A DNA stretch of 64,000 nucleotides, taken from assembly GCA_001563335.1 (NCBI GenBank), contig LRSL01000086.1, positions 18,839 to 82,838 of the forward strand, written 5' to 3'. The position numbers and the translations under genes are program-made. Every line of letters starts with the position of its first letter. Positions within the stretch are counted from its first letter, which is position 1. Positions 46,081 to 63,962 of the stretch are shown piece after piece. This DNA comes from Candidatus Thorarchaeota archaeon SMTZ1-45. GTDB taxonomy: Archaea; Asgardarchaeota; Thorarchaeia; Thorarchaeales; Thorarchaeaceae. The notes beneath the pieces are model-generated. The model saw only the letters and a program-made list of their open reading frames with translations, had not been told where the DNA came from and searched no databases.

Positions 46081-47067
46081 TCAATTTTTAACTACATGGA
46101 CAATTCCATTAAGATGAATTAACTTAGCATGATTCCTACGTTCCAAGATTCTAAGAAGGTCATGGCTCTCAGCTAAAGCTAAGAGAAGCGAATTAGAATC
46201 ATAATCACCATAGATGATTCTTGAGATATCATAGACTGTTTGCGGGGTGTCTGTTAGTGAGTCAGAAGTCTTCTGGAGTTTGTCGTCATATTCAGTCCGT
46301 AGTACTTGAATTCTAGATTTGATGTCAAGAATTGGTTCTCTGTGGCCAGGTAGTGCAATATAGCTGTTTCTGGAAGCGATTCGATTCAAAGAATCGAGGT
46401 AGGTGATTATGCCTATTTTTTCTGACCTTTCGAATGATATGCTTGGGTTTGAACTGATATCTCCTAGAATGAAATCTCCACTAAAGATAACTTGTTTTTC
46501 GTCGCATACATAACATGTCGACCCAGACGAGTGTCCGGGCACCCAGACTGCAGAAATATCACCAATACCGGTTTTAAAAGTAGCACCATCATTGAAACTG
46601 ATAGCTGTTGGAACAGACTCTACAAGTGATTTGAAATACTCAATGAGACCTTTTGGTGGCAGTATCGGGCGTTCAGTCTGTGGAACTCCAGAGGATGTAA
46701 TTAGATCCGTGTAGAACTCCATGTAGAGTTCTGCATACCTATCATAGTTTACTACTGCTGTGGCGTCCTTCTGATGAATCCATACCTTTGTAGGATTGTC
46801 ATGGGCATGTGCTCGTTCTCTAACAAATTGCGCAGCCAATCCAATGTGATCAATATGACCATGAGTCAGGAGAATCTGCTCAATGTCTGACATAGAATAT
46901 GACCTTTCTTGGAGCTCTTTCTGGATTATTTCTAAACTCTTGGTAGTCTTTGGACCTGTATCAATCAGAGTGAGTGGAGAGCTTTCTATAAGGTAACAAT
47001 TAACACTACCAACAGGAAATGGAGTCGGCACCTCGATTCTAGATACTCCATCGATTAGATTCTTCAT
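46081..47067 (-). CDS. Metallo-beta-lactamase-fold hydrolase
   Basis: LLTHGHIDHIGLAAQF, VPGHSSGSTCYVCDEKQVIFSGDFILGD. Confidence 0.92.
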   Translation of the reverse strand: MKNLIDGVSRIEVPTPFPVGSVNCYLIESSPLTLIDTGPKTTKSLEIIQKELQERSYSMSDIEQILLTHGHIDHIGLAAQFVRERAHAHDNPTKVWIHQKDATAVVNYDRYAELYMEFYTDLITSSGVPQTERPILPPKGLIEYFKSLVESVPTAISFNDGATFKTGIGDISAVWVPGHSSGSTCYVCDEKQVIFSGDFILGDISSNPSISFERSEKIGIITYLDSLNRIASRNSYIALPGHREPILDIKSRIQVLRTEYDDKLQKTSDSLTDTPQTVYDISRIIYGDYDSNSLLLALAESHDLLRILERRNHAKLIHLNGIVHVVKN

Positions 47068-47175: not shown

Positions 47176-47245
47176 TAATGAAAAGGGTGCTCAACAATAT
47201 CAAGGCAGGGTTGCTTGACGCTTTCTCAACGTTTAAGACTGTCAG
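47176..47245 (+). repeat. Dispersed ~80-bp element, diverged copy l
   Basis: aatgaaaagggtgctcaacaatatcaaggcagggttgcttgac...; only 5' half convincing. Confidence 0.35.
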
Positions 47246-48790: not shown

Positions 48791-49726
48791 CTATTCATCA
48801 TCTATCGACTCCAATTCCTCTGCTTTTTTGATAGCAGTATCAGCGAGAATGAAAGCAAAGGGAGCAGTGAAGATTGAAACCATTAACAATGCGACACTTA
48901 TACCTGATAACCAAGGTATCTCCCCAGATGCAACTAGGATTAGGAATATACCTAGAGTAGACACTGAAACTACAGCAAATACTGAGAACGCTAAGAAATT
49001 CCCTCTATTTGGGGATCGCATGAGAAACCAGCTGTCGGAGATGAGAAGGAGAACAGAGAGCCCAAGATTGTATTTCCGTGCAATCTTTACCAAATTGTTC
49101 GCTGAACTCGCTGTTAACATCAAAGTGAGTATGAAGACGGTTATTGTCAAGACGGAAATAAATTGATTTTGTCCAAGCGTGAGTAATATAAAAATGAAAC
49201 TGAAAAGCACAAGCATAATTCCAAAACCAAATCCAACCTGCATTTTGAACAGATGTATCTCCTCTTTGGGTGTCATAGTCATGGCGGCAGACAGGACACC
49301 ATATCGATCCACTTGACGCTCCTCTCTGACTTGATCGAGTAGAATCAATGCCTTCTTGCCAAGGGCGGTTATCCTGTACTCACCATTGACAGTTTCTATC
49401 AGACCTACTTCTGCGAGCTCTTTGAGATGATAGTTGAACGTACCACTCTCAAGAGATGGGTCAAGACCCAAGACATGCATTAGTTGTGTATAAGAGGCAC
49501 TACCTCTTTTTGAAATGAGCTGAATGATCTCTCTTCTAGTGGAATTCGAGAGTGCCTTTAACACTCCTTCGTGATATTCTCTTGATGACTTCAATAGTAT
49601 CACGTAGTGTTTTGTTTCGAACTTATTTAAGCCATTTTCACGAAATTTTTCGACAATATCTCTGTCAGTTTGTTGAATAATTTCGACATGTTTTATGATG
49701 TTTTTTAAAATGACAAGGCTGCTCAA
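48791..49726 (-). CDS. Winged-helix (ArsR-like) regulator fused to TM domain
   Basis: LKALSNSTRREIIQLISKRGSASYTQLMHVLGL..YHLKELAEVGLIETVNGEYRIT then four TM segments. Confidence 0.82.
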   Translation of the reverse strand: MSSLVILKNIIKHVEIIQQTDRDIVEKFRENGLNKFETKHYVILLKSSREYHEGVLKALSNSTRREIIQLISKRGSASYTQLMHVLGLDPSLESGTFNYHLKELAEVGLIETVNGEYRITALGKKALILLDQVREERQVDRYGVLSAAMTMTPKEEIHLFKMQVGFGFGIMLVLFSFIFILLTLGQNQFISVLTITVFILTLMLTASSANNLVKIARKYNLGLSVLLLISDSWFLMRSPNRGNFLAFSVFAVVSVSTLGIFLILVASGEIPWLSGISVALLMVSIFTAPFAFILADTAIKKAEELESIDDE

Positions 49727-49793
49727 CAGTGTGATTTTGTTAGGTTTCCCATGTAAATGATCCTACTGCCTTTTTCTTCATATCAATCTGATG

Positions 49794-51729: not shown

Positions 51730-51877
51730 TATCAATAGCAGTATGATTATCTAAAAACAAATAGGGCGTTCAAGAGAACACTACTAAGGCAAAGCCCCTG
51801 TTCTACAAATCCGATCAATCTTACATATTGTAACTATTAGGTTAATCGTGGTATGTTTTTGTCGCACCACATATTTT

Positions 51878-51947: not shown

Positions 51948-52805
51948 GTGTTCAAGACGTCAAAAGTTGTTTCTAAAGTAAGTGAGATGGTTCCGCCTGA
52001 AGTAAAAGAGAATATGAGAGATGTGAAACACAAAATCGTTGTACTCTCTGGCAAAGGTGGTGTAGGTAAGACCACAGTCGCAACTAACATGGCAATGTTA
52101 TTTGCAAAGAGGGGACTCAAGTCTGGAATCCTCGATGTCGATATATATGGACCAAATGTGCCTAAACTCTTAGGTCTCGAGGGTGAACACCCACACGCAG
52201 AACACCAAAAGCTATTGCCAGTTGAGGGACCACTGGGTCTCAAAGTGATGAGTATGGGTTTTCTTCTTCGAAACAGTGATGATGCTATTGCTTGGAGAGG
52301 TCCATTAGTGGGAAAGGCTATTCAGCAATTCCTAAGTGACGTCAAATGGGGCGAGCTGGATGTGATCGTTGTTGACCTACCACCAGGCACAGGAGATGAG
52401 ATTCTGAGCATTCTCCAGTCAATTCCTGAGATTGATGGTGTCATTATTGTATCAACTCCTCAAGAGGTCGCTGTATTGGATGCACGTCGAGCAATTCGAC
52501 TTGTAGAGAAGATGGGAGTACGGATTCTTGGTATTATAGAGAACATGAGTGAGTTTGTATGTCCACACTGTGGTAAGTCGTACAATCTTTTTGGAGAAGG
52601 TGTGACTCAGAAAGCCGCCAACGAGTTTGGAATTAGGCACCTCGGCTCCTTACCACTAGATCCAAGAATCATCAGCCTCTCTGATAGGGGAACTCCTTTT
52701 GTCGTGGAAGACCCAGAATCCAAAGCTGCCAAAGCATTTGGAGTGGTCGTTGATCAGCTCAGTAAGACAATCGGCATCAAAAAGAATCAGGGTGAGAAAA
52801 AATGA
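51948..52805 (+). CDS. Mrp/NBP35 family P-loop Fe-S carrier ATPase
   Basis: LSGKGGVGKTTVATNMAMLFA, DVDIYGPNVPKLLGL, CPHCGKSYNLFG. Confidence 0.95.
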   Translation: MFKTSKVVSKVSEMVPPEVKENMRDVKHKIVVLSGKGGVGKTTVATNMAMLFAKRGLKSGILDVDIYGPNVPKLLGLEGEHPHAEHQKLLPVEGPLGLKVMSMGFLLRNSDDAIAWRGPLVGKAIQQFLSDVKWGELDVIVVDLPPGTGDEILSILQSIPEIDGVIIVSTPQEVAVLDARRAIRLVEKMGVRILGIIENMSEFVCPHCGKSYNLFGEGVTQKAANEFGIRHLGSLPLDPRIISLSDRGTPFVVEDPESKAAKAFGVVVDQLSKTIGIKKNQGEKK

Positions 52806-53089
52806 GAGGTGGATATGGACGGTCAGGCAGTAGAGGTCGTTGGCCAGGAAATGGTCCATTCCAGGACCTACCACCATGGGAGAGACCTGGTTGGCTCTAT
52901 GGACGTGGATCTTGTTGGTATATGGGATATCGTCCCGGTATTGACTATACAGTTCAGCCATTTTCAGTAGCCAACAATCTTCAATCTTTGCAGAGCCAAA
53001 AAAAACTGCTTGAAGAACAAATCAGAAGTCTTCAGGATAGACTAAAGAATATTGAGAAACATCTGTCAGAGATTCAAAAACAGGAGTAG
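52802..53089 (+). CDS. DUF5320-like small protein
   Basis: Gly/Trp/Pro-rich N-terminus, C-terminal coiled coil; ATGA overlap with Mrp. Confidence 0.75.
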   Translation: MRGGYGRSGSRGRWPGNGPFQDLPPWERPGWLYGRGSCWYMGYRPGIDYTVQPFSVANNLQSLQSQKKLLEEQIRSLQDRLKNIEKHLSEIQKQE

Positions 53090-53136
53090 ATTATCTACAG
53101 GTGTGAATAACGAGTGGTACTAATGGTACCGAAACG

Positions 53137-54147
53137 ATGTGTATAACTATGACATACACATATGGCCCAGTGGCATCATGGCGCTATGGACGCTCTTTGG
53201 GAATTGATGTAACGACTCGTCCAAAGAAGTGCACCTTCAACTGCATCTATTGTCAATTGGGCTCAACGATAGAACATGTAGTTTCACCAGATGATATTCT
53301 AGATAAATTGCCATCTTCTCAGGATATCCTCAAAGAGGTCTATAGTGTTTTAAGACGGTTAGATTTGAACTCCATCGATGCTGTAACATTCTCTGGAGCA
53401 GGAGAACCCACTCTAAACTTGGAAATTGGTGTGTTAGCAGATGCAATAAAAAGAGAGATTCAGAGTTTACCTCTTGTACTTCTGACAAATGCATCACTTC
53501 TCCAAACCCCTGAGGTGAGAAAGAACCTTACTGGATTTGATATTATTTCTGCCAAGATGGATGCAGGTGATGATAGAACCTTCAGACTCATCAATCATCC
53601 AGCACGGGGTATTTTCACATTGGATGACATTATTGATGGCATTAAGAAACTACATAAACAGATGTATGGCACTCTGGCTCTAGAGGTCATGCTTCTAAAA
53701 GGACCACAGGGATTGACGAATGCAGAAGGACAAGCTAGAGGAGCACTCATTGAGAGGATTCTTGAGATCACACCTGATGTTGTACAGATCTACACTCCTT
53801 GGCGTCCCTCTGCAGTTGAGGGCATTCAACCACTCTCAGTCAACATTCTACACGAGTTTGGGCAGGAGCTTGGTGAGTATCTTGGCATGGATAAAATATG
53901 GGTTTATGGTTACCATGATGCCCGAAACAAACCCGTGAGATGGAAAAATCATAATAAAATTGAGAATGAGATCATTGATCTACTCAGACGCAGACCATGC
54001 AGAATTTCGGATGTCATAGTTTCCATGGGAATAAAGACAGCACTCGCGAAACACATCCTAAACAGCCTTCTCAAAAGTGGAGAGGTATCGATACAGAAGA
54101 TAGAGAATGAATCCTTCTACAGAATCGTTAATTATCCAGAGGTTTGA
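53137..54147 (+). CDS. Radical SAM protein with C-terminal winged-helix-like segment
   Basis: RPKKCTFNCIYCQLG, FSGAGEPTLNLE; tail IIDLLRRRPCRISDVIVSMGIKTALAKHILNSLLKSGEV. Confidence 0.9.
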   Translation: MCITMTYTYGPVASWRYGRSLGIDVTTRPKKCTFNCIYCQLGSTIEHVVSPDDILDKLPSSQDILKEVYSVLRRLDLNSIDAVTFSGAGEPTLNLEIGVLADAIKREIQSLPLVLLTNASLLQTPEVRKNLTGFDIISAKMDAGDDRTFRLINHPARGIFTLDDIIDGIKKLHKQMYGTLALEVMLLKGPQGLTNAEGQARGALIERILEITPDVVQIYTPWRPSAVEGIQPLSVNILHEFGQELGEYLGMDKIWVYGYHDARNKPVRWKNHNKIENEIIDLLRRRPCRISDVIVSMGIKTALAKHILNSLLKSGEVSIQKIENESFYRIVNYPEV

Positions 54148-54193: not shown

Positions 54194-54276
54194 ATGTAAA
54201 ATGAAAAGGGTGTCCAATACTGTAAGGAATGGAAGATTGCCTTACTCATCCAACATTATCAACCTATACTTTTTGC
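54194..54276 (+). repeat. Dispersed ~80-bp element, diverged copy i
   Basis: atgaaaagggtgtccaatactgtaaggaatggaagattgccttactcatcc... alignable to consensus. Confidence 0.45.
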
Positions 54277-54387
54277 CCATCATAGTAGCATCTAAGATAG
54301 ACTACAAACCGTTTTTCTTGATGAGCTTTAATGAAGCACATTCATAATGTGTTGTAATAATACAGATTGTTATGGTCATGTGAAACT

Positions 54388-54897
54388 TTACTTGGTAGAT
54401 AGTTTTTCTAAATCTTCGAGAATGGCCTCAAGATCTTCTTCATGCTCAACTTCATCTGCAAGAATCTCTAGAACCATCTTATGAGTGATTGGATCTTTTC
54501 CCTCAGTCATCTCGACCAATTTGTTATATACTACTATGGCACATTGTTCCCCCTTGATGTTCTGGACTAATAACGCACGAACCGATGGATCTGATGGCGT
54601 TTCATATCCACAGTTTGTTTCTTTATACCAATCCTCCGGTTTAATCAAAGGAGTTCCACCCAACTGAATCATTCTCTCTACCAGCATCCCAGCATGTCGA
54701 AGCTCATCACCAGCATGTTCCATTAGTTCTGCCTCTAAGAGACCTCTCATTGGTCCGACAACTATCTGCGCTCCAATCCAATATTGATAATATGCCAACC
54801 ATTCATCTGCAAATGCTTTATTGAGTAGCTTTAGTAGTTCATCGACATCAAGTTTGGCTTTGACTATTTCCGTTCCTTTACTTCCCATTATGATCAC
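54388..54897 (-). CDS. Ferritin-like (Dps/bacterioferritin-type) protein
   Basis: AFADEWLAYYQYWIGAQ, ELMEHAGDELRHAGMLVERMIQLGG, DEVEHEEDLE. Confidence 0.9.
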   Translation of the reverse strand: MIIMGSKGTEIVKAKLDVDELLKLLNKAFADEWLAYYQYWIGAQIVVGPMRGLLEAELMEHAGDELRHAGMLVERMIQLGGTPLIKPEDWYKETNCGYETPSDPSVRALLVQNIKGEQCAIVVYNKLVEMTEGKDPITHKMVLEILADEVEHEEDLEAILEDLEKLSTK

Positions 54898-55036: not shown

Positions 55037-55120
55037 ATGTTGAAAGGGATGTTCAATACTACCGAGAGAAGATTAGTTCCCTGATTACCTGACTTTCTCG
55101 TAAACCTGCACCTTTCTCTT
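55037..55120 (+). repeat. Dispersed ~80-bp element, diverged copy j
   Basis: gttgaaagggatgttcaatactaccgagagaagattagttccctg... Confidence 0.35.
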
Positions 55121-55198: not shown

Positions 55199-55702
55199 TT
55201 AATCATGATCATTTTCAAAACGATCATCAGCTTTGAATGAGTGGTCTTTTCTAATTGGGGACATTCCAAGCCAGCCTGATGTTGCTAGAGGTCTATTATC
55301 AAACTCTGGAACAAAGGGTTTGATATCAAGTAGTGGTGTTTCATCAAGCATGTCAACTCCTTTAATATATAGACGTGTTCCCTCAATGCTGACTAGTTTT
55401 ACAATAGAAATTCCAATAGGATTGGGGCGTGATGGGGCTCTTATGGCAAATATGCCATGCGAGTCGGTATCAAGGTATGGTTTCATTTGCATCTTGGGGG
55501 CTTTAGCCTTATGAAACCAATACAGGAGAATGATGTGTGAAAACCCATCCAGAGACTTGAGACCATCACGGAATTCTTCGAATACCTCAACATACCCGAG
55601 AGCATCAGACTTGCTCGATTGAATTGGAGTGGCTTTGCTCGATTTGAAAGGAGTTCTGATAGTTCCGATGGATTGTATCTTGAACTCTTGTGGTTTACTC
55701 AT
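55199..55702 (-). CDS. tRNA (t6A37) N6-methyltransferase TrmO family
   Basis: SIGTIRTPF, FSHIILLYWFHKA, FAIRAPSRPNPIGISIVKL, LLDIKPFVPEFD. Confidence 0.92.
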   Translation of the reverse strand: MSKPQEFKIQSIGTIRTPFKSSKATPIQSSKSDALGYVEVFEEFRDGLKSLDGFSHIILLYWFHKAKAPKMQMKPYLDTDSHGIFAIRAPSRPNPIGISIVKLVSIEGTRLYIKGVDMLDETPLLDIKPFVPEFDNRPLATSGWLGMSPIRKDHSFKADDRFENDHD

Positions 55703-55853
55703 GGTAGATTGAATAACTACATTATCAGATATCTGTTATTGGAGATACTCACCGTTACAACTAAACTACTGGAACTACTCAAACAGGAAGCTAAGCAACT
55801 GGATTAAACATAACGTTAGTATTGACTTGTTCTCGTTTGTAAGTAATTTATCA

Positions 55854-55930
55854 AAATGAAAAGTGTACTCAACAACGTCAGAAAGGGAAAGTTCCCTGTT
55901 CACTCGACCCCGTCAGCCTCTACTTCAAAC
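55854..55930 (+). repeat. Dispersed ~80-bp structured element, copy g
   Basis: aaaatgaaaagtgtactcaacaacgtcagaaagggaaagttccctgttcactcgaccccgtcagcctctacttc. Confidence 0.85.
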
Positions 55931-55951: not shown

Positions 55952-56785
55952 TTACGAGTTGTCAGAATCAACATCCCTATCGAAGGGATGCGAGCGAGCT
56001 AAAATACGTTCAAAATGTCTACGACTATCTTCTACTACTGAACTTGAGGTTTCAAGTGTAAAAAGCCCGAACTCTCCTGCAGGTGTGAATAGGCTAGTTA
56101 TTGCTATATTATCATCAAGAAGTGCTCCATCTCGTATGAGTTCTGGCTCAAGCTCATCTATGGTCACGTAACGTACTGAGATTCCAGCCTCGCTCTGCTC
56201 TCTGATTGTATTGGTAAGTGGGAATTCATCTCTCAGAAAATCCTTGTCTTTTAAAATGAAGATTCGGATAATCTTTAGTCCCTTCCTAGCTGTTCTAAGA
56301 TTAGTTTCCTGCCAGAGATGATGATCACCAGTTGACCATTTGTACGGATCCATGACAATATCTGTAGCGAGAACAGTCTTCTGAACAGTGTCAAATATCT
56401 GTCCTGCTCTCACATAGGCCTCTTCGCGTGGAATACTGATTCGACCTCTCCTGAGATCCTTAATCATCTCTCCGAACTTAAGTAGTCCTCGTTGTGCTTC
56501 TTGAATGTGAAGTGGACTTCCGTTTCTCATAATAAGGTCATATTCAGCGACCACCTCTCTTAGAGGCTTATGCGTGGCACTGACCTCAGAGATTGATAGT
56601 GTGTCAGCGATGACTTTTGTTGAGTGTGAAAGCTGAATTTGTGTTTCTATTGTCAGCGCAACTAGCTCAATTACCAATGCTACCAAAACGGAGGAGAGAA
56701 CATCTGTGGTGGCTAACCAAACGACGAAGCTCGCAATAATGGCTATCATGAGTCCCAATAGTTTCTCTGGAATTCGGATGCTCAT
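55952..56785 (-). CDS. Membrane-anchored protein, unknown C-terminal domain
   Basis: Two N-terminal TM helices, soluble 200-aa domain. Confidence 0.7.
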   Translation of the reverse strand: MSIRIPEKLLGLMIAIIASFVVWLATTDVLSSVLVALVIELVALTIETQIQLSHSTKVIADTLSISEVSATHKPLREVVAEYDLIMRNGSPLHIQEAQRGLLKFGEMIKDLRRGRISIPREEAYVRAGQIFDTVQKTVLATDIVMDPYKWSTGDHHLWQETNLRTARKGLKIIRIFILKDKDFLRDEFPLTNTIREQSEAGISVRYVTIDELEPELIRDGALLDDNIAITSLFTPAGEFGLFTLETSSSVVEDSRRHFERILARSHPFDRDVDSDNS

Positions 56786-56888: not shown

Positions 56889-56966
56889 ACAAGAAAAAAG
56901 GTGCTCAATAGTGTCAGAAGAGGAGAGTTCCCTGTTCACCCGACCCCGTCGGTTTCTGCCCTTACC
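56889..56966 (+). repeat. Dispersed ~80-bp structured element, copy e
   Basis: acaagaaaaaaggtgctcaatagtgtcagaagaggagagttccctgttcacccgaccccgtcggtttctgcccttac. Confidence 0.85.
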
Positions 56967-56993: not shown

Positions 56994-57563
56994 TTAGGAC
57001 GCATTACAAATCTTGTTAGCTAGTTCACGAACCTCGGCAACTAGTCTAGTATTCTTTTCGGCATCCCCTATGTCATTTGCAGTTCCATGAACAATCCCCA
57101 AAGTTTCCCCTTTCATATAGCGTATAAGATGTTTGATAGAATTTATCGCATGTTGAACTCCGGATTCTTTAACATTAGTATCTCCGTAAACAAAGAGAAC
57201 AGCAAATCGTTTTCCATCTAACTTGTGACCGCCTTTAACATGCAATGCTACTAATCTGTCAATGAATAATTTCAGTTGACCAGAATAATTGAACCAGTAT
57301 ATTGGTGATGCAAAAATGATGGTGTCAGCTTCGATAATTTTCGGGTAAATCTCATTCATATCATCGTCATCTTGAACGCATCTTAGAGGAAAACCTTCGT
57401 AGCACCAGAAACAACCTCGGCAGTGTTTAATGTTGAGTTCATGAAGATGAAGAATTCTTGATTCCATCCCTTTCTTTTCTAGTATATCATTCATCTGGTT
57501 AATTAAGTAACGAGTATTGCCCTTTCTTCTTGCGCTACCGTTCAGAATCAGAATTTTACTCAT
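56994..57563 (-). CDS. Flavodoxin-like/NADPH-dependent FMN reductase (iron-sulfur flavoprotein type)
   Basis: ILNGSARRKGNTRYLI, CRGCFWCYEGFPLRC, IIFASPIYWFNYSGQLKLFIDR. Confidence 0.92.
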   Translation of the reverse strand: MSKILILNGSARRKGNTRYLINQMNDILEKKGMESRILHLHELNIKHCRGCFWCYEGFPLRCVQDDDDMNEIYPKIIEADTIIFASPIYWFNYSGQLKLFIDRLVALHVKGGHKLDGKRFAVLFVYGDTNVKESGVQHAINSIKHLIRYMKGETLGIVHGTANDIGDAEKNTRLVAEVRELANKICNAS

Positions 57564-57618: not shown

Positions 57619-57698
57619 AGAAGAGAAAGAGTGGATCAACAGGTTAGGAAGGGGATAGTTCCCTGTTCATCCCCACTCAATTAGCCTCTACTTCTTAG
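57619..57698 (+). repeat. Dispersed ~80-bp structured element, copy f
   Basis: agaagagaaagagtggatcaacaggttaggaaggggatagttccctgttcatccccactcaattagcctctacttcttaga. Confidence 0.8.
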
Positions 57699-57821: not shown

Positions 57822-57896
57822 AATATAGAGAAGGTGCTCAATAATGCAATATGCGTAATCCTCCAAATACCCTACAACCAACCTCTACTTCTCACT
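57822..57896 (+). repeat. Dispersed ~80-bp element, diverged copy h
   Basis: tatagagaaggtgctcaataatgc...accaacctctacttctcactac; both ends conserved, centre lost. Confidence 0.5.
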
Positions 57897-58045: not shown

Positions 58046-59014
58046 TTGAACTGGGAATCCTTACTGCACAAGAATCTCTTGCAATGGCTGTTAGATGGAG
58101 AGCCTTGGGTTATCTATCGGACTTTGACATGGCTACTAGATAAGCCGGAGAATGATGATTCAGTATTAGAAGCAAAAAGGATGGTTCCCAAGCATCCAAT
58201 GATAGAAGGCATCTTCGCAGGCTTGAATGCGAACGGATACTGGGGGAAACCGGAGGATATACATACCTGGTGGCCCAAGAAATTCACCACATTCTGGCTG
58301 CTACCAGTCCTCGCAGATTTCGGTCTAACGATAGATGATAAGAGAATCGCGAAAGCTTGTGAATATGTGTTCACTACACAGCTTCAATCTGGTGCTTTTG
58401 GATGGTCTCCACCAACAAAACCCGGAGAGTGTCATACTGCAATACTTGTCGAAGCAATGGCAAAGCTTGGTCTTTTGCATGACTCAAGAGTACAGAGTGC
58501 CTACAGATGGCTCGTCAAGAAACAGCGCCTAGATGGCGGATTCTGGTGCAAGAACACTGGTCTGATAGGGAAACCAAGAGAGAAAGAGCCAAGCTGTGCT
58601 TTTGCAACTATGTTCGTGCTTGGAGCAATGGCTCAGAATCCTAGGTTAAAAGAGAGTATAGCTGCGAAGAGGGGGATCAGGTTCCTGTTTAAATGCTGGA
58701 GAAATCGTGGGAAAATGAAATATGCTGGCCATGACAGTGAGATTGGACATGGTTGGGAGAAGTTGAAATATCCGTTTACAGAATATCGTATTCTGAAGTT
58801 CCTTGAAGTTCTGTCGCAGTTTAAGCATTCAAAGCAAGAGCTTCTTAGATCTGGACTGGTTGACCTACTACTCAAGAAACGTGACAACGATGGACGGTTC
58901 ACACCCGAGTCAATCCATAGAGCTTGGTCTGATTGGGACTTTGGACAGAAACAGAAACCGTCGAGATGGATTACTCTTTGCGCTTTGCGGATTATGAAGA
59001 GTGCAATTGAGTAG
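58046..59014 (+). CDS. Alpha/alpha-toroid (prenyltransferase/squalene-oxidase repeat) protein
   Basis: ACEYVFTTQLQSGAFGW, AYRWLVKKQRLDGGFWC, LLLKKRDNDGRFTPES. Confidence 0.85.
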   Translation: MNWESLLHKNLLQWLLDGEPWVIYRTLTWLLDKPENDDSVLEAKRMVPKHPMIEGIFAGLNANGYWGKPEDIHTWWPKKFTTFWLLPVLADFGLTIDDKRIAKACEYVFTTQLQSGAFGWSPPTKPGECHTAILVEAMAKLGLLHDSRVQSAYRWLVKKQRLDGGFWCKNTGLIGKPREKEPSCAFATMFVLGAMAQNPRLKESIAAKRGIRFLFKCWRNRGKMKYAGHDSEIGHGWEKLKYPFTEYRILKFLEVLSQFKHSKQELLRSGLVDLLLKKRDNDGRFTPESIHRAWSDWDFGQKQKPSRWITLCALRIMKSAIE

Positions 59015-59101: not shown

Positions 59102-59182
59102 CAAAAGAGAAAGGGTGCTCAACAGTGTCAGAAACGGGAAAGTTTCCTGTTCACCGCCCACGTCACCCTTTACTTCTCTTTA
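59102..59182 (+). repeat. Dispersed ~80-bp structured element, copy d
   Basis: aaaagagaaagggtgctcaacagtgtcagaaacgggaaagtttcctgttcaccgcccacgtcaccctttacttctctttac. Confidence 0.85.
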
Positions 59183-59764: not shown

Positions 59765-61210
59765 GTGATTGGGATGAAAAGCTTTCTTATTTTTCCTGCT
59801 CCAGATGTCATAAACCTTAGATATTCTACTCCAACATTAAGTCCTCCACTTGGTCTTCTCTATATCGCCTCTTCGTTACGCGAAGCTGGAGTCGAAGTCA
59901 GACTTGTTGACCAGTTGGGAGAAAAGATACCTGATGAAAAGATACTGAGGAGAGTAGAAAGATACTCTCCAGATGTAGTTGGTTTGTCATTGATGTCATG
60001 GCAGGCAAAAAAAGCTGCAAAACTGGCGGCTATGATTAAAGAGAAACTTCCTGACACTCATATAGTATTTGGAGGCGTGCATGCATCAATCAACGCCGAA
60101 CGAATGATGAAAAAATACATCCAAATCGATTCAACTATTGAGGGAGAGGGCGAGCTATCTATGGTCGAGCTTTTCAAAGCTCTAGAACACGGGAATTCTA
60201 TTCAAACAGTATCTGGTATCTATTACCGTGAGAACGGGAAAGTGAAGAGAGGTGCCTCTAGACGTCTTATAACCGATCTCGATTCTTTGCCACCACCTGC
60301 AATGGACTTGGTTAAGAAGGAATGGTATGGTCAATTAGAAGGATTGAAGTTACCATCGATGGTGTCTATGGTGTCTTCTAGAGGTTGTCCTTTCTCATGT
60401 AATTTCTGTTGCTGTAGTCAATTCGCAGGTAGGAAGTGGCGTTCACGGAGTCCTGAGAATGTGGTGGATGAGATTGAGGACCTATTAGCAGCAGGATATG
60501 AGACCATTTTCTTTGTTGATGATTGTTTTACCCTAAATAAGAAGCGTATATTGCGGATTAGTGAGCTAATTAAAAGGCGGAAACTCGAATTCAATTGGCT
60601 TTGTGAGGGAAGAGTTGACCAAATTGATTATCAAATGACTAGATCTATGGTCACGAGTGGTTGCAAGCTCATCTACCTTGGAATAGAGAGTGCAAATCAA
60701 AGGATACTTGATTTTTACAAGAAGAAGATAACTCCTCAAATGAGTATTCAAGCAGTAAAGACCTCTCGTAAGGCAGGCTTAGATATCATTCTTGGTACAT
60801 TCATCATTGGAGCACTTGGTGAAACAAGGAGCGAAATTCAAAATACTATCGATTTCACAATGAAACTCGATATTGATTTTCCTCAACTGAATATATTGGG
60901 AGCAATGCCGGGGACTGACATTTGGAATCAGCTAGTGAATCAAAAGTATATAGATCCTGAGGTGTATTGGGAAACAGGGGTCCTCGTTCCAGATATCTAT
61001 CCCAATTCGGTGAAGACCGATATTCTAGAAAGATGGATTACTGAAGTCTATGAGAAGTTTGTTCATAGAAAAAAATACCTACTGAAACAGATACTTATGA
61101 CGCTGAAGAGCAAGTATAGGATGCAACTTTTATTGAGAAATATGAGTCATGCGGGTAATATCTTAGATTATGTGAAAGGAAAAGCTGATGTCAATGGAGA
61201 AAAACACTAG
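59765..61210 (+). CDS. B12-binding-domain radical SAM protein
   Basis: N-terminal cobalamin-like fold (SPPLGLLYIASSLREAGVEVRLVDQ), CPFSCNFCCCSQFAGRKWRSRSPENVVDEI. Confidence 0.93.
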   Translation: MIGMKSFLIFPAPDVINLRYSTPTLSPPLGLLYIASSLREAGVEVRLVDQLGEKIPDEKILRRVERYSPDVVGLSLMSWQAKKAAKLAAMIKEKLPDTHIVFGGVHASINAERMMKKYIQIDSTIEGEGELSMVELFKALEHGNSIQTVSGIYYRENGKVKRGASRRLITDLDSLPPPAMDLVKKEWYGQLEGLKLPSMVSMVSSRGCPFSCNFCCCSQFAGRKWRSRSPENVVDEIEDLLAAGYETIFFVDDCFTLNKKRILRISELIKRRKLEFNWLCEGRVDQIDYQMTRSMVTSGCKLIYLGIESANQRILDFYKKKITPQMSIQAVKTSRKAGLDIILGTFIIGALGETRSEIQNTIDFTMKLDIDFPQLNILGAMPGTDIWNQLVNQKYIDPEVYWETGVLVPDIYPNSVKTDILERWITEVYEKFVHRKKYLLKQILMTLKSKYRMQLLLRNMSHAGNILDYVKGKADVNGEKH

Positions 61211-61217
61211 AGTATTG

Positions 61218-61299
61218 CAAGGGAAAAAGGATGCCTAACAGTGCGTGGAACTGGAAAGTTCTCTGTTCATCCGACACTATCAGCCTCTGCTTCTTACTA
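61218..61299 (+). repeat. Dispersed ~80-bp structured element, copy c
   Basis: aagggaaaaaggatgcctaacagtgcgtggaactggaaagttctctgttcatccgacactatcagcctctgcttcttac. Confidence 0.85.
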
Positions 61300-61336: not shown

Positions 61337-61957
61337 TTGCAAGTAAGGGGCGTTTCAAAAGTGTCATATTATCAAGATGTGAAGGACCCAAACATTCCAG
61401 TTGAAGTTGTTAAAGCCAGATTGGAAAATATCTGTGCGATTCTTGATATCAATCCACCAGAAACAATTGTCTATGAGGAATCATGGGGGTCTTTTCAGAG
61501 GCCTCGATTGCTAGATGATGGTAGAACGATCATTCTTTTTAAAAGCCAGGACGATTCTGTCCTAAACTGGCAGATATGTAATCTCTATCATACCTTGGCA
61601 AGTAGGAAATCTCCTAGATGGATTGTTCGCCATGTATTCTCCTTCATGCTTCTTCCAGTCATCTTTGTGACAATCAATGTGTTTGCTTTGATCTATCTTG
61701 AGGTTGGATCTTTTGACATAGGTTTATCTCTCACAGTTTTTCTTCTTCAGTTTCCATTTGCTGCATTTAGTTGGTATTGGAAAAAAGGACTTGAAGACGA
61801 CATAATACTATGGAGAAGCAGTATGAAACAAGCAGGGCTATGGCCTGATAATATTGGAAACCATTACAACAAGTTGCTCAAGAGAATTCCATATGCAATG
61901 ATACTATTTTTCATATTTTTCGCATTGTTATTTGGTTGGATGATAGTAACGAGTTAG
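61337..61957 (+). CDS. Membrane protein, unknown
   Basis: 206 aa, three TM-like segments. Confidence 0.65.
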   Translation: MQVRGVSKVSYYQDVKDPNIPVEVVKARLENICAILDINPPETIVYEESWGSFQRPRLLDDGRTIILFKSQDDSVLNWQICNLYHTLASRKSPRWIVRHVFSFMLLPVIFVTINVFALIYLEVGSFDIGLSLTVFLLQFPFAAFSWYWKKGLEDDIILWRSSMKQAGLWPDNIGNHYNKLLKRIPYAMILFFIFFALLFGWMIVTS

Positions 61958-61975: not shown

Positions 61976-62055
61976 AAAAGAGAAGGGGTGCTCAACAGTG
62001 AGCAGCTCGGGAAAGGTCCCTGTTCAACCGACCCTGTCAGCCTCTACTTCTTACA
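61976..62055 (+). repeat. Dispersed ~80-bp structured element, copy b
   Basis: aaaagagaaggggtgctcaacagtgagcagctcgggaaaggtccctgttcaaccgaccctgtcagcctctacttcttac. Confidence 0.88.
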
Positions 62056-62093
62056 CATCCATGAGTTCTATTCCTACATCTATGTCCTTTTCC

Positions 62094-62597
62094 TTATTCT
62101 AGTTCAGAGAGGACTCTGGAATACAACGCAGCTGACATGTGAAAGGTGGTTTCTTCAACAAGAGAACGAACTTTGGCGTGTGATTCCTTCTTCGATAGTA
62201 TTCCTTTCTTTGTGGCAGAAAGAATGATTCCGATAGTTCCTGTCATCCTGAGTCCAAGAGTTCTAGCTACGTCTCTTGCAGCTAGATCGTCAATGACTAT
62301 TACAGAATCTGATTTTTGCTTCTTGATATGATAAGCGAGTACAAGTGCATCTACCTCCCCTTGATGGAGTCCCATTTCATTAAGCTTGCCTGCGAGTGGG
62401 CTTTCTGGCACCTCTGACACAGTCAACCAGTCCGAGAAAGCACTTTGCAGAGTCGCATATTCTGATTCTGATGTATCAAGAACCTCCACCTTGACAGTAC
62501 CAACAGTGAAAACCTGGTCGAACAGTCGTTGTAATAGGTCAAGAAGTCCTAGTTTTCCTAAATAGATGAGAGGCGATGAGTTGACGATTGCAATCAA
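62094..62597 (-). CDS. DUF3368-type PIN-like toxin
   Basis: IVNSSPLIYLGKLGLLDLL, LHQGEVDALVLAYHIK, VIDDLAARDVARTLGLRMTGTIGIIL. Confidence 0.9.
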   Translation of the reverse strand: MIAIVNSSPLIYLGKLGLLDLLQRLFDQVFTVGTVKVEVLDTSESEYATLQSAFSDWLTVSEVPESPLAGKLNEMGLHQGEVDALVLAYHIKKQKSDSVIVIDDLAARDVARTLGLRMTGTIGIILSATKKGILSKKESHAKVRSLVEETTFHMSAALYSRVLSELE

Positions 62598-62598
62598 T

Positions 62599-62913
62599 TC
62601 ATATGCCCTCTACGAAGGTCAAGTCCTCTGTAAGCGTTTGTTCATCATACATGGTCACTTTGCGTTCAGCTAGTTCTCTCATCATTGCTCTTAGTGGTAT
62701 TTCAGCAATAGATGCTGCCTTCCAGATACTGAGCCGTCTAGCTTCAACTTCCTCAGAAAGATAATCGAGAAGATCGGCTGAAAGAGACCTATCGATGAGC
62801 TGTCTCACATACGATGATTTGTCAACTATCTTTCTTTTCTCCATCAAGAAAGTAAGGCGTTTTTCCAGCTCCTTATCCATTCTCACTGAGAGTACATCGC
62901 CCATTCCTATCAT
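62599..62913 (-). CDS. UPF0175/CopG-type antitoxin
   Basis: LSVRMDKELEKRLTFL...SLWKAA-type helix SIWKAASIAEIPLRAMMRELAERKV; abuts toxin gene. Confidence 0.87.
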   Translation of the reverse strand: MIGMGDVLSVRMDKELEKRLTFLMEKRKIVDKSSYVRQLIDRSLSADLLDYLSEEVEARRLSIWKAASIAEIPLRAMMRELAERKVTMYDEQTLTEDLTFVEGI

Positions 62914-63217: not shown

Positions 63218-63298
63218 AAAGAGAAAGGGTGCCCAACAGTGAGCGGCTAGGGAAAGGTCCCGTTAGCCAACCCCGCCCGATAGCCTTGTACTTCGTGT
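63218..63298 (+). repeat. Dispersed ~80-bp structured element, copy a
   Basis: aaagagaaagggtgcccaacagtgagcggctagggaaaggtcccgttagccaaccccgcccgatagccttgtacttc. Confidence 0.85.
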
Positions 63299-63353
63299 CC
63301 GTCTTAGATATTCGATGTTATAATCTGAGAACTCAAGCGAATCATCAATACAG

Positions 63354-63962
63354 TCAGTTACGAGAGTTTACATCCTCGACACACGTTTTGATGAGTAAAT
63401 ATCGGGGTACGTTTTTCATGTAGTCGCGGTACAGGTCACCATATTGTTTCAGGCAAGCTTGTTCCTCCGCTAGAACTCTAGACCTACCAAATAAGGAGGC
63501 TAGTATCTGAAGGAATATTACAAACAGTGATCCTACAGCAATACCAATCCCACTACCTGCAATGAATAACATGAGAATCTGAGGATGGCGCGATACTCTA
63601 TAGAGTCCTCTGGAAACTGGTTGATTGAGTGGAGTGTTCTTGAAGTTGAATAGAGCGATGATGAAACCAATCAGACCAAAAAAGAAGAGAACAATTCCGG
63701 GAATGAAAAAAAGGGAATCAACTTTGAGTGGAGAAAGGACTACTAGAATCATATAGACTACGAGCATAAGTTTCTCGGTCACATAGAAAGCTCGATGTTT
63801 TCTACTCCAGCTAGACCTGTTGTACTCGTAGAGCCTTTTCACTACATGTTTGGGGAAAGTGAGAAGTAAGACACCATATGTTAGGTACAATACAAGAAAG
63901 AGGATCCATCCATTGAACCATCCAATTTCAAGTGCAGGGAAGAACTCCATGTCACCAATCAT
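63354..63962 (-). CDS. Isoprenylcysteine carboxyl methyltransferase/PEMT-like membrane protein
   Basis: LNQPVSRGLYRVSRHPQIL, EEQACLKQYGDLYRDYMKNVPRYL. Confidence 0.85.
   Translation of the reverse strand: MIGDMEFFPALEIGWFNGWILFLVLYLTYGVLLLTFPKHVVKRLYEYNRSSWSRKHRAFYVTEKLMLVVYMILVVLSPLKVDSLFFIPGIVLFFFGLIGFIIALFNFKNTPLNQPVSRGLYRVSRHPQILMLFIAGSGIGIAVGSLFVIFLQILASLFGRSRVLAEEQACLKQYGDLYRDYMKNVPRYLLIKTCVEDVNSRN

Follow-up and report, generated by a model that had tools for sequence, protein, structure and literature searches.

The window analysed here is a stretch of 64,000 nucleotides from contig LRSL01000086.1 of Candidatus Thorarchaeota archaeon SMTZ1-45 (assembly G000). An initial annotation of it had reported a repeat family with a copy at 61218-61299, and both the copy and the family proved to be real. 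The copies of the window were aligned and then modelled without any assumed structure (models R1 and R2). Eight strong copies were located with the sequence-only covariance model between 54198 and 63297, all on the + strand and with E values from 1e-16 to 1e-23; decayed or weaker copies, + in every case, begin at 57822, 55041, 51754, 49707 and 47177. The covariance model gave no further strong copy in the rest of the 3.54 Mb assembly (119 contigs), and there was no Rfam match anywhere in the window. Nearly each intergenic gap from 54 kb to the contig end contains one copy, and taking strong and decayed copies together there is roughly one per gap over 47-64 kb. The genes in between (payloads) lie on either strand and are mostly present as a single gene or a toxin-antitoxin pair per unit. 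Repeats and payloads are listed below.

46081..47067, −, payload, metallo-beta-lactamase fold (Pfam PF00753); between repeats in G009 and G006 with equal relative orientation
47177..47210, +, left half of a decayed repeat copy (R2 21.9 bits, E 5.6e-5)
49707..49735, +, possible left half of a decayed repeat copy (R2 14.7 bits, E 0.01)
51754..51820, +, possible repeat copy, very decayed (R2 15.5 bits, E 0.005)
51948-52805, +, payload, Mrp-type P-loop NTPase (Pfam)
53137-54147, +, payload, radical SAM protein (Pfam)
54198..54278, +, diverged repeat copy (R1 60.7 bits, R2 42.2 bits)
54388..54897, −, payload, ferritin-like (Pfam PF00210)
55041..55119, +, decayed repeat copy with the type-D right end TCTTTCTGAAGACAGAGCAAGCTG (R2 30.3 bits, E 1.3e-7)
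55199..55702, −, payload, TrmO-like (Pfam PF01980); in the arrays of G003, G014 and G040
55853..55930, +, repeat copy (R1 70.2 bits)
55952..56785, −, payload, DUF6879 (Pfam PF21806); in the array of G034 (another genus)
56890..56964, +, repeat copy (R1 64.9 bits)
56994..57563, −, payload, NADPH-dependent FMN reductase (Pfam PF03358)
57620..57697, +, repeat copy (R1 63.8 bits)
57822..57896, +, weak decayed repeat copy (R2 22.9 bits, E 2.7e-5)
58046..59014, +, payload, prenyltransferase/squalene-cyclase-like toroid (Pfam PF13243); 77% in the array of G036 (another genus)
59103..59181, +, repeat copy (R1 72.5 bits) that folds end to end (z -3.4)
59765..61210, +, payload, B12-binding radical SAM (Pfam); 80-82% in G009 and G008, between repeats
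61220..61299, +, repeat copy of the initial annotation (R1 71.1 bits, R2 54.2 bits)
61337..61957, +, payload, membrane protein with no Pfam match
61976..62056, +, repeat copy (R1 77.1 bits, R2 74.1 bits)
62094..62913, −, payload pair, DUF3368 PIN-like toxin and UPF0175 antitoxin (Pfam)
63218..63299, +, repeat copy nearest the contig end, type B core GGCTA-GGGA-AAGG-TCCC-GT-TAGCC (R1 57.0 bits, R2 55.9 bits)
63354..63962, −, payload, PEMT/ICMT-like methyltransferase (Pfam PF04191), 38 bp from the contig end

The stop codon of the B12-binding radical SAM gene is 10 bp upstream of the repeat copy at 61220. Several of these payloads were found again in other arrays: the FMN reductase has proteins 87-89% identical in the arrays of G034 (another genus) and G006, and the Mrp-type NTPase and the neighbouring radical SAM gene (51948..54147) occur together between repeats of G003 with their orientation kept. 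The DUF3368/UPF0175 pair is also present in the arrays of G007, G008, G012 and G022, so that toxin and antitoxin move as a single payload in at least five genomes. Considering that the genes left of 54 kb (metallo-beta-lactamase, GNAT, pyruvate-kinase-like, Mrp and the first radical SAM) occur in arrays elsewhere too, the array of the window probably starts near 46 kb. The assembly carries 25 Ras-family GTPase genes, and its neighbours in the phylum carry 13 to 73; together with the unlinked 16S, these numbers would be in keeping with Asgard archaea.

The initial annotation had interpreted the repeat as a folded hairpin supported by compensatory base changes. The strings on which this was based are in the sequence: GGATG/CATCC and GAACT-GGAA-AGTTC in the 61.2 kb copy, GGTG/CACC in other copies and GGCTA...TAGCC in the 63.2 kb copy. 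The pairs of the described fold were scored against a null in which the 3′ letters were redistributed at random, and changes on both sides were no commoner than in the shuffles. In the eight copies of the window, 2 pairs had changed on both sides against 0.8 in the shuffled sets (95 of 500 shuffles were as high), and among 68 copies from many genomes there were 5 such pairs against 5.4 (364 of 500 shuffles as high). The hairpin thus fails the covariation test that had been set for it. Its pairing level, 78-84%, was above the 33-62% of slid controls, as is expected from conserved sequence alone. With RNAalifold the covariation term of the eight copies was a penalty of +1.1 kcal/mol, and folding of single copies on both strands was not clearly better than shuffles except for that at 59103 (z about -3.4 on both). 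Across an alignment of 77 copies, subfamily structure dominated the mutual information, and AACAG/CTGTT showed no Watson-Crick signal.

A free-standing structured RNA, a terminator or a MITE placed between genes, as the hairpin would imply, is very improbable in view of these results. The copies are intergenic and one of them folds end to end (z -3.4), but hairpin covariation stays at shuffle level, the copies do not depend on gene orientation, and each genome has one array, on a fixed strand and anchored at 16S. A MITE or an IS200/IS605-like element was rejected in view of the single array per genome and the lack of a Y1 transposase in 10 array genomes.

That anchor at 16S became visible by comparison with relatives. 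The repeat was found in 43 of the 47 genomes, and in all 13 genera, of this Asgard family; outside the family no genome among 149 matched the first model. In all examined genomes of the family whose 16S flank is readable and uncut, the repeat is located about 20-140 bp beyond the 16S 3′ end, on the strand opposite to 16S. This adjacency was seen in about 15 or more genomes (G002, G007, G008, G009, G010, G014, G015, G018, G019, G025, G030, G033, G034, G035 and G040). In contig L049 of G002 a distance of 20 bp separates the 16S 3′ end from the start of the last copy, which is on the other strand, and the single-contig genome G034 likewise has the repeat beside 16S, which is partly masked. Since the opposite-strand copy lies directly past the 16S 3′ end, reading it in the direction of 16S gives the predicted 3′ trailer of pre-16S rRNA, and the repeat as modelled is its reverse complement.

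The 16S leader holds sequence complementary to this trailer, and weak opposite-strand matches of the model upstream of 16S correspond to the leader. When the leaders of 11 genomes were co-folded with their own trailers the mean gain was -31.0 kcal/mol, while shuffled trailers gave -4.5 (sd 2.9) kcal/mol and the trailers of other genomes -23.0. Cutting at a bulge-helix-bulge followed by ligation is established for pre-16S processing in other archaea (PMC7714728, PMC12918454). The pairing of leader and trailer is, as predicted from these sequences, the archaeal pre-16S processing stem, which looks intermolecular and of which the repeat supplies one half. It would be the copy adjacent to 16S that forms, with the leader, the stem of the EndA/RtcB pathway (PMC7714728, PMC12918454). 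The known processing stems are single, whereas the arrays hold numerous copies of the trailer half, alternating with genes. Beside 16S the trailers are of several types, which differ even within one genus, and the leaders are conserved.

The main pairing partner of the repeat is therefore the 16S leader, outside the repeat itself. The idea that RNA shape constrains the repeat was right in kind and misplaced as to the partner; in the same way, the purine-rich head and pyrimidine-rich tail do belong to a stem, but with the 16S leader as the other strand of the putative processing stem. By the sequence model the copies of the window are homologous to those of the relatives; the ones at 63218, 61976 and 55853 still pair well with the leader of a relative and the remaining ones do not. 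The best of them is 63218..63299 (gain -24.8 kcal/mol, z -9.4, leader of G002); the values were -19.1 kcal/mol and z -6.5 for 61976..62056 and -18.3 kcal/mol and z -8.5 for 55853..55930, and the copy at 61220..61299 was at shuffle level (z -0.1). The three that pair best include the two closest to the end of the contig. Only 38 bp follow the last gene of the contig, which ends before any 16S, and no 16S rRNA gene was found in assembly G000; from the arrangement in relatives, we infer that 16S lies just past the end of the contig.

The arrays were compared mostly in fragmented metagenome assemblies, among which G034 and G036 are single contigs. An array is formed by units of a payload gene and a trailer copy that run away from 16S, and one of its ends stops at 16S. 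Copies of the same contig agreed in strand in 157 of 157 cases on about 40 contigs. After turning the contigs to the orientation of the repeat, homologous blocks of at least 300 bp were on the same strand in 281 cases and on the opposite strand in 1, a count that takes in 16S and its flanking regions. Between genomes, the blocks that arrays have in common mostly comprise one payload, with edges in or beside repeats, and their order differs. The window genes had 33 protein matches in other arrays, and 31 of these had the same orientation relative to the repeat. All 31 matches with at least 50% identity keep it, despite other gene orders and other genera, and the two exceptions are distant paralogues, 27-29% identical. 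Some repeats are chimeric, with crossovers at varying positions within the repeat. A search of open-access papers brought up no account of 16S-trailer arrays. A search for viral carriers yielded 18 exact 16-19-mer matches in IMG/VR, all of them weak by the model, which were read as chance.

A CALIN is by definition devoid of the integron integrase. Like integrons and CALINs (PMC9668308), the arrays are directional, made of single-gene cassettes that each have a structured repeat, with accessory genes, toxin-antitoxin pairs and shuffling of payloads between relatives. Integrons are reported to be enriched in Asgard archaea (PMC9668308), and a canonical integron or CALIN as reported there, with the repeat as attC site, would fit the architecture and the kinds of payload; the string GCTCAAC also matches RYYYAAC. 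Nevertheless, we hold this reading to be most unlikely. The 3′ end of the repeat has no GTTRRRY partner, most genomes have no match to the integrase family, and the 16S trailer accounts for the repeat base for base. Unlike integrons, the arrays have a repeat that is not attC and no integron integrase was found; their genes often oppose the array direction, and the anchor is 16S rRNA instead of intI-attI.

Inside the arrays there are traces of 16S itself. Internal units carry remnants of the 16S 3′ region on their 16S-proximal side, with a maximum reach of 43 nt from the 16S end. Five remnants end exactly at 43 nt (L044, L047, L052 and two in L054; groups g1, g8 and g10), at GTCGTAA|CAAGG, which we take to be about E. 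coli position 1493. Others end at about -36, and across lineages the ends are at -43, about -36, -22 and -14. Three of the five exact-end remnants have a flank of 70 nt in common and may derive from one inherited event. Many type A and C units are without 16S sequence and have their right edge in the hairpin CCATCTGAGATGG, which lies between the trailer core and 16S. In the window, the copy at 56890..56964 keeps in its right flank ACCAGTTTAGAACTGATAAAGC, the 16S-adjacent hairpin of related units (compared with L052:12931). By comparison, then, an intact 16S stands at the end of the array and internal units have at most 43 nt of 16S plus a trailer. In 6 of 8 genomes copies score lower with the repeat model the farther they lie from 16S; the exceptions are G007 and G018.

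Some other features of these 16S regions were noted. The string AGGAGGTGATTGATGG of internal units was considered as a Shine-Dalgarno sequence with a start codon, and is actually the 3′ terminus of 16S carrying a short insertion; genuine 16S genes have this insertion too. At several positions the 16S genes of the family contain short insertions (about 27-35 nt), one of them exactly at GTCGTAA|CAAGG in the decoding site, so that one position of insertion coincides with remnant ends in the arrays. In the 3′ region they were seen in L056:5821-5849, L057, L061, L093, L094, L096, L121, L129, L136 and L138; others are near 1358 (L055/L057), 1311 (L136), 659 and 874 (L140) and 874 (L139), and the 16S of L140 has one insertion of about 850 nt. 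The short insertions are likely bulge-helix-bulge mini-introns. A longer trailer type with an extra domain containing GCAATCGTCAGGTTGCCCCGACGCC is present in L093, L094, L096, L099 and L105, and as internal copies in L055 and L057. Finally, a DUF1801/YdeI-type payload (called on L047) occurs in two genera (L044:387, L047:9352 and L052:12866); its conserved flank of about 70 nt directly abuts 16S position 1460, and this flank is a good candidate for mapping the terminus of a payload.

Taking into account trailer identity, adjacency to 16S, orientation, shared and shuffled payloads and 16S remnants, all of them obtained by comparison, we consider it probable that the array arose by serial capture of genes beside the 3′ end of 16S, in which every insert supplied a trailer to replace the previous one. 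Genes would join singly, immediately past the 16S 3′ end, and the incoming payload would supply a new trailer and sometimes also the last 14-43 nt of 16S. The functional copy would be the one whose trailer RNA pairs with the 16S leader in the stem that releases pre-16S rRNA; as a new trailer comes with each payload, rRNA maturation would survive and the old trailer and payload would be shifted outward. Repeated rounds would give a directional array in which older trailers decay and payloads circulate among relatives. In this reading, payloads would enter as trailer-bearing units and the newest unit would be the one nearest 16S. The lack of 16S on the contig of the window and the weak decay gradient, absent in G007 and G018, stand against serial capture.

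How the units are joined divides our judgement. We see about an even chance that the joining step is ordinary recombination at 16S/trailer sequence, homologous or micro-homologous, with selection acting as a filter. An insertion between 16S and its trailer would be lethal unless it brought a correctly oriented trailer, and from the lethality of trailer-less inserts the single direction, the single trailer per unit and the swapped trailers would all follow. General recombination is favoured by the varied crossover points and by recombinase families missing from most array genomes. PF00589, PF00239 and PF01797 had no match in G000, the closed G034, G010, G002, G005, G015 and G025; of 20 genomes that have arrays or belong to the family, 13 were without a PF00589 match, and its matches elsewhere were not on array contigs. 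The Y1 transposase was found in 0 of 10 array genomes. Tyrosine and serine recombinases were absent near the arrays and from most genomes, and there was no integrase among the scanned payloads.

That remnants stay within the last 43 nt seems more restricted than random joining would allow, unless duplications of greater length were lost again. A site-specific system similar to that of integrons, with circular single-gene cassettes, the trailer as attachment site and an enzyme that is unrecognised or supplied in trans by a mobile element, is a possibility to which we give about one chance in three. It would explain the strict orientation, the one gene or toxin-antitoxin pair per unit, the payload kinds like those of integron cassettes, the identical end of five remnants in g1, g8 and g10 and the many right edges inside one trailer hairpin, CCATCTGAGATGG. 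It is harder to reconcile with the absence of tyrosine recombinase, serine recombinase and Y1 transposase families from most array genomes, the closed one included, with crossovers whose position within the repeat varies and with remnant ends that vary by lineage; moreover, three of the five exact ends may count as a single inherited event given their common flank of 70 nt. The identity of the repeat with the 16S trailer holds under either mechanism of joining.

Integrative elements and genomic islands at tRNA genes restore the 3′ end of the gene, and tandem accretion occurs. The arrays resemble them in that an essential RNA gene receives insertions at its 3′ end, in the replacement end that is carried in, in the direct repeats that remain and in the directional stacking; insertion at the 3′ end of an RNA gene with its restoration was found in the arrays by comparison. 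They differ in having the 16S rRNA gene as target, a repeat that consists mainly of non-mature trailer, and units of single genes with no integrase.

The 12 kb downstream of 16S was also surveyed in 20 other Asgard genomes. Three of them, G152 (f23, L179), G130 (f3, L181) and G056 (f11, L180), have a second copy of their own trailer 2-6 kb downstream on the same strand, with genes in between. These duplicated trailers are unrelated to the repeat of the window, and they keep the 16S end in G152 (22 nt) and G130 (14 nt). They belong to three other families, and the phenomenon is therefore independent of the sequence of the window repeat. The matches of AT-rich f2 trailers (L174, L177 and L178) were read as low complexity.

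In most Asgard lineages 16S is separate from 23S, and the account of this in PMC8997704 puts forward, where it treats the subject, no mechanism of unlinking. Insertion past the 16S 3′ end could be a source of it. A dedicated capture system at the 16S 3′ end, in which an unrecognised enzyme would join cassettes carrying a 16S end and a trailer, and whose accumulation would have separated 16S from 23S, is a tentative proposal that we consider rather unlikely. Arrays of this kind would account for the frequent assembly breaks near 16S in such genomes. If the serial-capture reading is right, 16S, which among marker genes is conserved most and used most, would be a site of horizontal gene capture in the closest archaeal relatives of eukaryotes, and pre-16S trailers, but not leaders, would be predicted to be exchanged between species. 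Serial capture would also offer a definite reason why 16S and 23S are unlinked in Asgard archaea, and a way for an essential rRNA gene to take repeated insertions without breaking.
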